A stretch of 35,958 bases of DNA, taken from Aestuariivirga sp. GTDB lineage: Bacteria > Pseudomonadota > Alphaproteobacteria > Rhizobiales > Aestuariivirgaceae. The notes under the pieces were generated by a model. That model saw only the letters and a list, made by a program, of their open reading frames with translations. It was not told the origin of the DNA and did not search any database. The position numbers and the translations under genes were made by a program. Location: assembly GCA_030680855.1 (NCBI GenBank), contig JAUXUN010000060.1, positions 1-35,958 on the forward strand, given 5' to 3'. Below, piece after piece: positions 3,649 to 6,678 of the stretch; positions within the stretch are counted from its first letter, which is position 1; every line of letters begins with the position of its first letter.

Positions 3649-3996
3649 CTAGATTTTGCGGAATTTCACGCCATTGCCGCGATACCAGCCGTCATCGGCA
3701 ACGACCCGCGAACACGAGGCCTTGCCGTTCAGCCAGGTCGACCAGACAATGCACAGCTTGCCGCGCTCCACACTCCAGCGGCCACGGTCTTCCTGGCCCG
3801 TCATCTGGCCAATCAAGGTGCCATTGCCACGCGCCGTAATCTTGACTGTAACGGCGCCATTGACCACTGCATGGAAATTGCCGGGAAACAGCTTTCCGAG
3901 TTCAGCCTGGGATAGCACCGCCTCATCCGCTCCTGCACTGACGCCCGAAAATACCAATACGGAGGCAGCGAGGATGGAAATCATGAATTGTTTCAT
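3649..3996 (-). CDS. Small secreted protein of unknown function
   Basis: The product is 115 residues when the start is placed at the ATG at 3996, which begins MKQFMISILAASVLVFSG, a textbook Sec signal peptide with a likely cleavage after SAGA. A start 13 codons further upstream exists, but it would put charged and polar residues ahead of the signal and its DNA overlaps the promoter and palindrome. The mature part has two cysteines about 17 residues apart (CIVW and SCSR) that could form a disulfide, and a GRWSVERGKLCIVW stretch typical of small beta-rich periplasmic proteins. I do not recognise a named family. It stands alone between ssb and gyrA on the same strand, with its own promoter candidate. 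Confidence 0.7.
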   Translation of the reverse strand: MKQFMISILAASVLVFSGVSAGADEAVLSQAELGKLFPGNFHAVVNGAVTVKITARGNGTLIGQMTGQEDRGRWSVERGKLCIVWSTWLNGKASCSRVVADDGWYRGNGVKFRKI

Positions 3997-4019
3997 ATCG
4001 TGAACCCTGATTCCATTTG

Positions 4020-4060
4020 TGTTGCATTGCAACATAATTGACCCGCCTTTAGCCAGTCAA
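4020..4060 (-). promoter_or_regulatory. Candidate promoter with overlapping palindromic operator
   Basis: On the minus strand TTGACT (-35, 4055-4060) is followed after 18 bases by TATGTT (-10, 4031-4036). Overlapping the -10 and the presumed start site is a perfect 7-base inverted repeat with a one-base centre, TGTTGCA-N-TGCAACA (4020-4034). The placement is that expected of a repressor site for the small secreted protein gene that starts at 3996. The binding protein is not identified. Confidence 0.45.
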
Positions 4061-4649: not shown

Positions 4650-4726
4650 GACACATCTCCCTGTTTTCGCGCACCCTAGTCCTTCGCACGCAGGCTTTCA
4701 CCCGCTGGCTGGGTTTATCCACACCG

Positions 4727-4755
4727 TATATATGTTCTATTTTTGTTCCAAACAA
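4727..4755 (-). promoter_or_regulatory. ssb promoter with LexA (SOS) box in the spacer
   Basis: On the plus strand GTTC (4734-4737), seven bases, then GTTC (4745-4748) is a perfect match to the alphaproteobacterial LexA box. Read on the minus strand, TTGTTT (-35, 4750-4755) and TATATA (-10, 4727-4732) are separated by 17 bases, and the SOS box fills that spacer. LexA bound here would block RNA polymerase. Pattern and geometry are seen directly; LexA binding is inferred. Confidence 0.75.
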
Positions 4756-4757
4756 GG

Positions 4758-4787
4758 CAAAAAACACCCCCGGCATAACCCCGGGGC
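4758..4787 (-). terminator. Intrinsic terminator downstream of the microprotein genes
   Basis: Read on the minus strand, a CCCCGG stem pairs with CCGGGG around a seven-base loop (4768-4786). Three bases further on comes a run of six T (4759-4764). It lies just after the stop of the 47-aa microprotein gene and just before the ssb promoter, insulating ssb from the microprotein transcripts. Confidence 0.75.
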
Positions 4788-4801
4788 TGTGATTAAATCT
4801 G

Positions 4802-4945
4802 TTAGGCGCGACCGAACAGGCGCGCAATCCGGCCTGCGCTCTTGCCTTCGCTCATCTTCGCATTTGCGAGATGGGCTTCAACGTCCTTGTTCTGCATCAT
4901 GGCAGTGCTGTAAACGTTTGAATATGCTCCAAAAACCCAGTTCAT
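4802..4945 (-). CDS. Microprotein A (47 aa), paralogue of microprotein B
   Basis: A short minus-strand gene reads MNWVFGAYSNVYSTAMMQ at its N-terminus and ends with a basic GRIARLFGRA tail. No signal peptide or membrane helix is evident, though residues 1-17 are amphipathic and aromatic-rich. Two adjacent ATGs (4948 and 4945) follow a strong GAGGAG; the second gives better spacing and matches the start of the neighbouring paralogue. The first 16 residues match microprotein B at 13 positions, and several of the codon differences are synonymous, so the frame is under protein-level selection. The gene has its own promoter cassette and an intrinsic terminator. I do not recognise a named family. 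Small hypothetical proteins controlled by a LysR regulator (VtlR) are known in Brucella and Agrobacterium, and this may be an equivalent set. Confidence 0.75.
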   Translation of the reverse strand: MNWVFGAYSNVYSTAMMQNKDVEAHLANAKMSEGKSAGRIARLFGRA

Positions 4946-4980
4946 CATCGTTCTCCTCAAATCAAATCTCTGTTGTTCTC

Positions 4981-5009
4981 AATATGGACTTTTCGCGGTC
5001 GCAACACAA
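4981..5009 (-). promoter_or_regulatory. Promoter of microprotein A
   Basis: On the minus strand TTGTGT (-35, 5004-5009), a 17-base spacer and CATATT (-10, 4981-4986) lie about 40 bases upstream of the start codon. The same hexamers at the same spacing occur 230 bases upstream, in front of microprotein B, which supports both as real. Confidence 0.6.
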
Positions 5010-5032
5010 ACGGTATAAAGCTACACAACCAT

Positions 5033-5050
5033 CAGAAAAAGTTACACGTC
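5033..5050 (-). promoter_or_regulatory. Upstream activator-type box, copy 1
   Basis: The 18-base element CAGAAAAAGTTACACGTC (plus strand) matches a second copy at 5264-5281 at 16 of 18 positions. It lies about 24 bases upstream of the -35 hexamer of microprotein A, the usual position for LysR activator binding. The stop codon of microprotein B (5042-5044) falls inside it. Confidence 0.55.
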
Positions 5051-5179
5051 ACATTTACCATGAAAGCGCATCAGTCTCTGCTTCTGCTCCGCCGTCAGGC
5101 TGCCGGGCCGGCGATGAAGCGGGCGCTGCCCCATGGCCGTATTGTAGACGTTCGAATAGGCTTCAAATAACCAGTTCAT
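5042..5179 (-). CDS. Microprotein B (45 aa), paralogue of microprotein A
   Basis: A short minus-strand gene begins MNWLFEAYSNVYNTAMGQ and continues into an Arg/Lys/Gln-rich second half ending GKCDV. The ATG at 5179 is chosen because the GGGAG ribosome site lies seven bases from it, while an in-frame ATG at 5185 abuts that site; this start also lines up with microprotein A. The N-terminal 16 residues are shared with microprotein A and the rest differ, suggesting one conserved functional segment and a variable tail. The last codons are encoded by DNA that doubles as the upstream box of microprotein A. It is divergent from the LysR regulator gene, 106 bases away. No terminator follows it, so its transcript probably reads through microprotein A. 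Function unknown. Confidence 0.73.
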   Translation of the reverse strand: MNWLFEAYSNVYNTAMGQRPLHRRPGSLTAEQKQRLMRFHGKCDV

Positions 5180-5210
5180 GTTCATCTCCCATGATTTAGC
5201 GGGCCACTTG

Positions 5211-5239
5211 AATATCGGCTCTTGCCGGACGGGTCACAA
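5211..5239 (-). promoter_or_regulatory. Promoter of microprotein B
   Basis: On the minus strand TTGTGA (-35, 5234-5239), a 17-base spacer and GATATT (-10, 5211-5216) lie about 32 bases upstream of the start codon. Position and sequence mirror the promoter of microprotein A with an offset of 230 bases. Confidence 0.6.
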
Positions 5240-5250
5240 ACGGCAATAAA
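5222..5250 (+). promoter_or_regulatory. Candidate promoter of the LysR-type regulator
   Basis: On the plus strand TTGCCG (5222-5227), a 17-base spacer and AATAAA (5245-5250) could drive the regulator gene starting at 5286. It overlaps the -35 of the divergent microprotein B promoter, an arrangement that would let the regulator control itself and its target at once. The match to consensus is moderate. Confidence 0.35.
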
Positions 5251-5263
5251 CAACCAATCCCAA

Positions 5264-5281
5264 CAGAAAATGTTACAGGTC
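5264..5281 (-). promoter_or_regulatory. Upstream activator-type box, copy 2
   Basis: CAGAAAATGTTACAGGTC (plus strand) matches copy 1 at 5033-5050 at 16 of 18 positions. It lies about 24 bases upstream of the microprotein B -35 and ends four bases before the GTG start of the LysR regulator. A second conserved block, CACAAACGG (5235-5243 and 5005-5013), follows at almost equal distance in both copies and covers the -35. Confidence 0.55.
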
Positions 5282-5285
5282 TCTC

Positions 5286-6260
5286 GTGGCACGCCGACTC
5301 CCCTCACTCAATGCCCTCAAAGCCTTTGAAGCAGCCGCCCGGCATGTGAGTTTTACTGAGGCAGCCGGCGAGCTTTTCGTCACCCATGCCGCCATCAGCC
5401 GCCATATCCGCGAGCTGGAGGAATATCTCGGCACCCAGCTCTTCCTGCGCACCGGCCGTGGTGTGGCCCTCACCGAGGCCGGCAAGCGCTTTGGCGAGCA
5501 GTTGACGCCCCTCTTTGATGCCCTGTCCAATGCTTCGCGCGAAGCGGCAGCCGTCGGCGCCGCCCGCCCCCTCAATGTTTCGGTGGAACCGGCCATCGCC
5601 TCGCGCTGGCTCGTGCCGCGCCTCGGCCACTTCAAGGAGCTGCACCCGGATATTGAGCTCAACATTGATCCCACCACCCGCCTGGTGGATTTTCGCGTCG
5701 ATGAAGTTGAGCTCGGCATCCGCTATGGCCGCGGCAATTGGGAAGATGTGGAAATGACCAAGCTGTCATCCAACGTGGTGATCTTCCCCGTCTGTGCCCC
5801 CGCCCTCATCGCCGGCGTGCAGAACCTTAAGCCGGAGGATCTCAAGAACTACAATCTGCTCCATGAGCAGCGCAAGCAATGGTGGGCCGACTGGCTCACC
5901 GCCAACGGCATCGAAGGCGTCACCGATTGGAAGGGCACCGTGTTCCAGAATCACCTGGCCATTGAAGCCGCCGAATCCGGCCAAGGCTTCGCCCTTGGTG
6001 ATCAAATTCTGTGCACGGATTCAATCGTTGAAGGCTGGCTCGCCCGCCCCTTTGCCCTTGAAATGAAGGACCATGGCAATTATTGGATTGTCCGCGCGAA
6101 GGGCTCCAAGGAAACCGCAACGGCGCGCTCCTTCCGCGAATGGCTGACAAGTGAAATGGCTGAGACCAACAAGAAATTTGCCGCATTGAAGGCTTCATCA
6201 AAACCCGCCAAACAGGCAGTAGCACCTGCAGGGCTGTTTTATCCCCAGTCGAATCATTAA
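5286..6260 (+). CDS. LysR-type transcriptional regulator, GcvA/VtlR-like
   Basis: The 324-residue product has an N-terminal winged helix-turn-helix (MARRLPSLNALKAFEAAARH, then FTEAAGELFVTHAAISRHIR) and a C-terminal periplasmic-binding-like effector domain from about residue 95, the layout of LysR regulators of the GcvA subgroup. The length is slightly above the usual 300 because of a Lys/Ala/Pro-rich tail after residue 300. The start is a GTG with a weak AGG six bases upstream; the conserved N-terminus leaves no better choice. It is divergent from two microprotein genes that share an upstream box, so I infer it regulates them. In Brucella and Agrobacterium the LysR regulator VtlR activates small-protein genes and a small RNA, which is the closest precedent I know. 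The effector is not predictable. Confidence 0.88.
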   Translation: MARRLPSLNALKAFEAAARHVSFTEAAGELFVTHAAISRHIRELEEYLGTQLFLRTGRGVALTEAGKRFGEQLTPLFDALSNASREAAAVGAARPLNVSVEPAIASRWLVPRLGHFKELHPDIELNIDPTTRLVDFRVDEVELGIRYGRGNWEDVEMTKLSSNVVIFPVCAPALIAGVQNLKPEDLKNYNLLHEQRKQWWADWLTANGIEGVTDWKGTVFQNHLAIEAAESGQGFALGDQILCTDSIVEGWLARPFALEMKDHGNYWIVRAKGSKETATARSFREWLTSEMAETNKKFAALKASSKPAKQAVAPAGLFYPQSNH

Positions 6261-6300: not shown

Positions 6301-6678
6301 ATGGCCCGAAAACTATACGACTGCATGAAATGCCCGGGCTACTGCTGCTCCTACCCCGTCATTGAAGTGAAGGACCGCGATGCCGAGCGCATCGCCAAGC
6401 ATTTTGAAATGCCGCTCGCCAAGGCGGAGAAGAAGTTCTTCAAGAAGGCCCATGGTTACAAGCGCATCATGCGCCGCCAGAAAGATAAGATCTATGGCAA
6501 GATCTGTCAGTTCTTTGACACCAAGGAACGCCGCTGCACCATCTATCATGCCAGGCCCTCAACTTGCCGCGCCTTCCCCGGCGAAGGCCACTGCGGCTAT
6601 TATGATTTTCTGAAATTCGAACGCGACGGCCAGGAAGATGAAACCTACGTCTCAGTCACCAACCATTCGGGAAATTGA
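6301..6678 (+). CDS. YkgJ-type cysteine-cluster protein
   Basis: The 125-residue protein has the cysteine pattern of the YkgJ/CxxCxxxCC family: C8, C11, C15 and C16 near the N-terminus, then C69, C79, C89 and C98. Such clusters are thought to bind zinc or an iron-sulfur centre, but the biochemical role of the family is not established. The segment between the cysteine groups is helical and lysine-rich. AAGGAA lies about 15 bases before the ATG. The gene ends 9 bases before the HisD-family gene, so the two are almost certainly one operon, and a metal-related or redox link to that enzyme is a reasonable guess. It follows the LysR gene by 40 bases and could belong to the same transcript. Confidence 0.8.
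   Translation: MARKLYDCMKCPGYCCSYPVIEVKDRDAERIAKHFEMPLAKAEKKFFKKAHGYKRIMRRQKDKIYGKICQFFDTKERRCTIYHARPSTCRAFPGEGHCGYYDFLKFERDGQEDETYVSVTNHSGN

Follow-up and report, generated by a model that had tools for sequence, protein, structure and literature searches.

We consider it rather likely that the two tandem genes A and B, found in the window (the whole 35,958-nucleotide stretch analysed, contig JAUXUN010000060.1 of Aestuariivirga sp., assembly GCA_030680855.1), are microgenes of one family which are switched on by a divergent GcvA-like LysR-type regulator (LTTR), and that they act like the DUF1127 proteins driven by VtlR/LsrB. The microproteins are probably the main output of the adjoining LTTR, in view of the conserved adjacency and of what looks like its own promoter. 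The coordinates of the genes, of their promoter/operator units and of the regulator are summarised in Table 1.

Table 1 Features of the microprotein locus (positions in the window).
Feature	Position	Strand	Basis or remarks
Terminator-like hairpin + T run 3' of B	4768..4786	(-)	Hairpin scan
Microprotein gene B	4802..4945	(-)	47 aa; starts MNWVFGAYSNVYSTAMMQ/MNWVFGAYSNVYSTAMM; ends GRIARLFGRA, the family-typical tail
Promoter/operator unit of B	4967..5054	(-)	Model R1, 66.3 bits
CATATT of B	4981-4986	(-)	Read from sequence
Promoter of B, CCGTTTGTG	5005-5013	(-)	Read from sequence
Operator of B, inverted repeat	5030-5046	(-)	Read from sequence
Stop codon TAA of A, within operator of B	5042..5044	(-)	5/5 tandem loci
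Microprotein gene A	5042..5179	(-)	45 aa; starts MNWLFEAYSNVYNTAMGQ; tandem paralogue, divergent tail
Promoter/operator unit of A	5206..5283	(-)	Model R1, 44.2 bits
GATATT of A	5211-5216	(-)	Read from sequence
Promoter of A, GCCGTTTGTG	5235-5244	(-)	Read from sequence
Operator of A, right half degenerate	5261-5277	(-)	Read from sequence
Divergent LysR-type regulator, GcvA-like	5286..6260	(+)	Pfam/NCBIfam, loci comparison; proposed dedicated activator

The preliminary description of this DNA had reported two tandem short frames with a shared N-terminus and a ribosome site each. Both frames are present on the minus strand, and a recount from the sequences gave 13 identical residues among the first 16, with seven of the first 16 codons differing and four of these seven differences being silent; GGAG/GAGG, similar to a ribosome site, precedes each gene. 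An additional in-frame ATG lies immediately upstream of the start of B, and A would be 47 aa long if read from its upstream ATG. The motif was also rightly described as lacking a named domain: neither A nor B matches Pfam or NCBIfam, and membership of DUF1127 (PF06568) was rejected, with no match of at least 23.3 bits in A, in B, or in any of the family members scanned, which were 41 of 45 main genes. Profile A3, consisting of B-type rows only, matches no chain in the PDB. A phage or defence origin was rejected as well, PHROGs and PADLOC showing no match for either gene.

Homologous short frames, one of the things to be looked for in related genomes, are present, and no frameshifts were seen in close relatives. 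Using A as the query against 61 genomes, an ATG-started gene with this N-terminus was detected in 25 of the 36 other genomes of the same genus, and both A and B recur in two near relatives (G023 and G009); this recurrence indicates that the frames are not chance. The scan of named genomes provided 25 loci, including those of Aestuariivirga litoralis and Taklimakanibacter lacteus, and the start typical of the family is MN(N)W[VIL][FL]xx[YT]..., as in MNWxFxxYSxVYxxAM. When 397 genomes of the order were searched with the profile, 17 gave a match (E<=0.01): 15 belong to the window's family and two, with weak matches, do not; the weak match of G074, outside the family, is genuine by its neighbourhood, and that of G296 (order-wide search with A1) has no ATG start and looks like chance. 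Members beyond the window's family mostly retain only a helical N-terminus carrying AY or a comparable aromatic-hydrophobic pattern, with a basic tail behind it. The small-protein family spans the Aestuariivirgaceae and several other families of Hyphomicrobiales. It appears undescribed within the literature searched: the titles, the first parts of abstracts and the passages covered held no such microprotein-LTTR pair, and none of the motif strings.

Conservation is concentrated in the first residues. The dN/dS ratio was 0.108 over residues 1-16 (pooled from 13 related pairs, not all independent, two of them pairs of A genes) and 0.440 in the tails (12 equal-length pairs), indicating that the N-terminal start is under purifying selection and that the tail is looser, in agreement with the earlier claim that the motif is kept at the protein level. 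Within the window clade, three genomes share the same DNA sequence at the start of B, so the B genes of this clade are uninformative alone on constraint; the start of A varies mostly silently. Residues 2-18 are amphipathic when read as a helix: the mean hydrophobic moment of 50 proteins was 0.263, compared with 0.170 in shuffles (0 of 1000 reached 0.263), and none of 1000 shuffles reached the moment of 11 divergent proteins either; B alone has a moment of 0.153, under the shuffle mean. Residues 19-35 are not amphipathic (952 of 1000 shuffles reached the observed moment). Of 53 proteins, 52 have a tail of net positive charge and none looks transmembrane (Kyte-Doolittle, no 17-residue window at 1.6). 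AlphaFold2 predicted a single long helix of low confidence (mean pLDDT 67.5, pTM 0.28), and hence no fold that would speak for a partner.

These coding constraints bear on another reading, in which the transcripts work chiefly as regulatory RNAs, in the manner of the VtlR-controlled AbcR1/2, with the reading frame of lesser importance. An own promoter, a short transcript and a terminator do resemble sRNA genes, and VtlR controls sRNAs as well as small proteins, according to passages of PMC7486931. Terminator-like hairpins were found 3' of 24 of 50 family genes, against 1-9 of 50 in ten shuffles, and the remaining 26, which include all the A copies but one, have no clear terminator within 110 nt; for the hairpin scan behind the site following B, shuffles yield 0.7 such sites on average. 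Nevertheless, the low dN/dS of the first 16 codons, the ATG-started short frame present in 45 of 45 LTTR regions (see below) and the lack of any Rfam family within the window at gathering scores make this reading very improbable, and a purely sRNA function was set aside on the dN/dS values and the Rfam result.

The hairpin lies between B and ssb, as would be expected of leader peptides attenuating ssb. This idea is scarcely credible and was rejected: the distance to ssb ranges from approximately 150 nt to more than 2 kb among relatives (e.g. L050 versus L071), no ssb match was found in the other-family loci examined (1.5-kb flanks), and a codon run typical of attenuators was not seen by eye. 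Between ssb and gyrA, a frame of 128 aa (3649-4035) has no Pfam match and has relatives in 8 of the 25 named loci. Beyond the LTTR, a gene encoding a CxxCxxCC domain, of the zinc- or iron-chelating type (6301-6678), is present in all the 25 named loci.

The regulator is the constant companion of the microgenes. The window LTTR carries HTH_1 and LysR_substrate domains and passes the NCBIfam model PRK11139 (GcvA subfamily) with 319.9 bits against a cut-off of 288. The preliminary description had named many hits near LysR genes as something that would support it, and such pairing was found from both directions: all the 25 named loci fetched through the small gene have a divergent LTTR orthologue at one flank and ssb at the opposite flank; and with the LTTR as the query (E<=1e-80), which is the unbiased direction of the pairing test, orthologues were found in 17 of 249 genomes of the order and, at class level, in one of 289, the window's own, with all the 17 LTTR-fetched genomes having a divergent short ORF (four of these 17 LTTR matches hold one stop within the aligned stretch). 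A divergent ATG-started short ORF was present in 45 of 45 distinct LTTR regions (LTTR identity of at least 48%, at least 250 bases of upstream DNA), which is not an unbiased count, since many of the regions were fetched via the small gene; 42 of these ORFs came from an automatic ribosome-site filter and three (L083, L084, L109) were read by eye. In the LTTR tree, the window LTTR falls outside a group of eight other paralogues from its own genome, with a root support of only 81/52.

The DNA upstream of the microgenes has a common order. Alignment A2 was built from 53 candidate segments, of which 45 remained after removal of five that were near-duplicates or A copies and of three chance segments; it shows a TGTAA-N7-TTACA inverted repeat, GTAG or GTCA, GCCGTTTGT with its GTTTG core, and a CATATT-like -10. 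Both half-sites keep at least four of their five letters in 32 of the 45 aligned segments, and do not in 13. T-N11-A is the layout of LTTR sites; the TGTAA-N7-TTACA dyad fits it and is located upstream of the promoter, with the regulator gene divergent. From the constant divergence, the dyad and the common promoter we infer that the LTTR controls the microgenes.

In the window's own genome (3.73 Mb), model R1 finds two sites up to E=10, both at this locus (150 of 394 first-look candidates were scored). An exhaustive pattern search allowing up to three mismatches gave the two microgene sites (0 and 2 mismatches) plus 15 further matches with 3 mismatches, a level at which the reversed control pattern gave 19. 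On this evidence the LTTR would be without another target of this promoter type in the genome, R1 being blind to other layouts. The missing third promoter copy, together with the constant pairing (25/25 and 17/17), would also suit a feedback in which the microproteins, as the only target of their LTTR, bind that regulator as anti-activators or co-activators; peptides with a helix and a basic tail, and without another fixed partner gene, would fit such a local loop. We regard this feedback as unlikely; its "only target" premise extends no further than promoters of the R1 layout.

The promoter also served as a probe independent of the protein sequence, matching (R1, E<=0.01) in 36 of 397 order genomes and in 45 of 69 family genomes. 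Thirteen genomes with matches at E<1e-5 were outside the model and had not come up in the earlier protein searches (a first five: G072, G147, G344, G358, G394; and a further eight: G003, G022, G382, G706, G707, G709, G713, G722), and in each of them an LTTR match stands divergently to a small gene, which encodes a microprotein in 11 cases (27 aa in G358, read by eye) and a DUF1127 protein in two; L186, L187, L192 and L193, whose genes had already been seen, were excluded from the count. The promoter model thus recovers members missed by protein search, as in G003 and G022, where the protein search was without match and the microgene was found via the promoter. The order-wide search also gave two reverse-strand partial R1 matches at known sites, and there were eight weaker R1 matches, seven of which were examined (E 4e-4 to 7e-3; G015, G020, G278, G393, G203, G416, G079): three (L206, L211, L212) lack an LTTR match and appear to be chance; L210 has an LTTR match and no short ORF listed; and L205, L208 and L209 have an LTTR-like gene plus a short ORF.

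The short ORFs of L208 and L209 look DUF1127-like by eye, and neither matches the Pfam model; in L209 (G393, around 1622) the LTTR-like gene (25% identical) faces an arginine-rich ORF of 86 aa. In L205 (G015:C38, around 1545), an LTTR paralogue (37% identical) is divergent from a 45-aa ORF starting MYKIVDRLRAAY..., followed by a hairpin and T run seen by eye; it is a possible further type of microprotein under another LTTR.

The preliminary description had interpreted the fixed N-terminus and the unrelated tails of A and B as an adaptor with changing partners. The tails are indeed unrelated by sequence, but the adaptor interpretation was not supported, none of the tests made speaking for partner exchange: the tail of B is that typical of the family, and A is best read as a local duplicate ending in the operator of B. 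The two-gene arrangement occurs in 5 of the 45 regions (the window clade of three, and G013/G014), and in each of the five tandem loci the frame of A stops at the TAA of the left half-site in the B operator. We infer that A is a tandem duplicate of the promoter and gene start whose frame runs into the operator of the next unit, which would explain the new tail without partner exchange; on this view the "swapped tails" are probably a side effect of the duplication. Homology of the A tail to the B tails was not clear at the protein level in four of the five loci, where the scores were within the shuffle range (12 of 300 shuffles reached the fifth), and a look-alike stretch (RLMRFHGK/RIARLFGR) exists, with the score of A within the shuffle range. 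Nor was homology of the A tail DNA to the B coding DNA accepted, its score being reached by 21 and 25 of 500 shuffles in two loci and by 385-494 of 500 in the other three. L052, the nearest relative of the window clade on the LTTR tree, has a single gene, so that one duplication followed by loss and two separate duplications are both possible.

The mechanism that we propose for the LTTR-driven microgenes would be as follows. The LTTR would bind the TGTAA-N7-TTACA repeat and, on sensing a co-inducer, activate the weak GTTTGT/CATATT promoter, activation rather than repression being suggested solely by the layout of the site. A short transcript would be made, of around 200 nt for B if counted from the -10 to the hairpin. 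The first 18 residues of the microprotein may form an amphipathic helix docking on the inner membrane face or on a partner, and the basic, fast-changing tail would add electrostatic binding. The tandem duplication of promoter and gene start would have provided gene A as an additional copy, nearer the LTTR and with a new tail.

A link to DUF1127 is suggested by f36. In its two probe genomes (G072, G147), an 84-aa protein with DUF1127 (E 5.8e-9 and 4.5e-7; above cut-off) is encoded by a gene preceded by an R1 promoter and a divergent LTTR; this LTTR is only 40% identical to that of the window, and its placement in the clade is weakly supported (81/52). As judged from the promoter sequence, the f36 case links DUF1127 proteins and microproteins via a common promoter, with a weak placement in the tree. 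The R1 promoter was found in only these two f36 loci among 38 DUF1127 and paralogue loci scanned. In 8 of 30 fetched DUF1127 loci an LTTR homologue lies no more than 1.5 kb away, recognised in four of them solely through its DNA-binding part. The DUF1127 protein in the same promoter slot and the LTTR homologues near DUF1127 loci would be expected if the microproteins were shortened DUF1127 proteins that had lost the box and were now drifting or narrowed in role. This is decidedly unlikely: the motif is under purifying selection, so the proteins are not drifting; the scanned members have no DUF1127 similarity; and the f36 regulator is distant and weakly placed.

The window's genome itself has 14 DUF1127 matches at E<=0.01, 12 of them over the cut-off and some clustered (C80, C33), compared with 0-8 in seven other genomes. 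One of its LTTR paralogues (L111, G000:C59:26461-27677; 35% identical) is divergent from a gene whose DUF1127 match falls short of the cut-off (20.9-21.4 bits against 23.3).

A tentative extension, which we would not bet on, is that the LTTR exists solely to dose one peptide, whose helical head is fixed and whose basic tail is free to evolve, this module having come to occupy the place of the DUF1127 proteins of a sister lineage. If true, DUF1127 proteins and the proteins described here would be mutually replaceable variants within a broader class of LTTR-driven regulators with an amphipathic helix and a basic tail in Hyphomicrobiales. With a promoter by which it can be recognised, a regulator that always accompanies it and a head sharply more constrained than the tail, the family is a clean comparative system for asking which part of such small proteins matters.

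LysR-type-driven very small proteins affect phosphate and sugar use in alphaproteobacteria, according to passages of PMC12595884 and PMC12501420. The closest known system is VtlR/LsrB, also a Hyphomicrobiales LysR-type regulator, which passages of PMC7486931 and PMC12595884 describe as directly activating very small DUF1127 proteins in Brucella (BAB1_0914, BAB2_0512, BAB2_0574) and Agrobacterium (Atu1667); unlike these targets, the A/B family does not carry DUF1127. A passage of PMC11975290 places lsrB in an operon with trxB, whereas the window LTTR has no thioredoxin reductase neighbour, its neighbours being the microgenes and ssb in one direction and, in the other, the genes for the CxxCxxCC domain and for histidinol dehydrogenase. 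The published VtlR boxes (GCAT-N3-TG-N3-T or CAATGCAGCCATGCA) have no match at 4700-5400, with window-wide counts at or below chance, and the operator here is TGTAA-N7-TTACA instead. The identity of the window LTTR with VtlR/LsrB was rejected on the trxB neighbour and the VtlR box, neither of which was found. It passes the GcvA-subfamily model, but the only R1-type sites detected are the two microgene promoters. According to passages of PMC11707872 and PMC12501420, DUF1127 proteins are rich in arginine and bind PhoR, a sensor kinase; YjiS is peripheral at the inner membrane, which the authors credit to an N-terminal amphipathic helix (passage of PMC11707872). The family described here differs from YjiS/DUF1127 in lacking the domain, in its sequence and in having its own divergent LTTR, and has a comparable amphipathic start.
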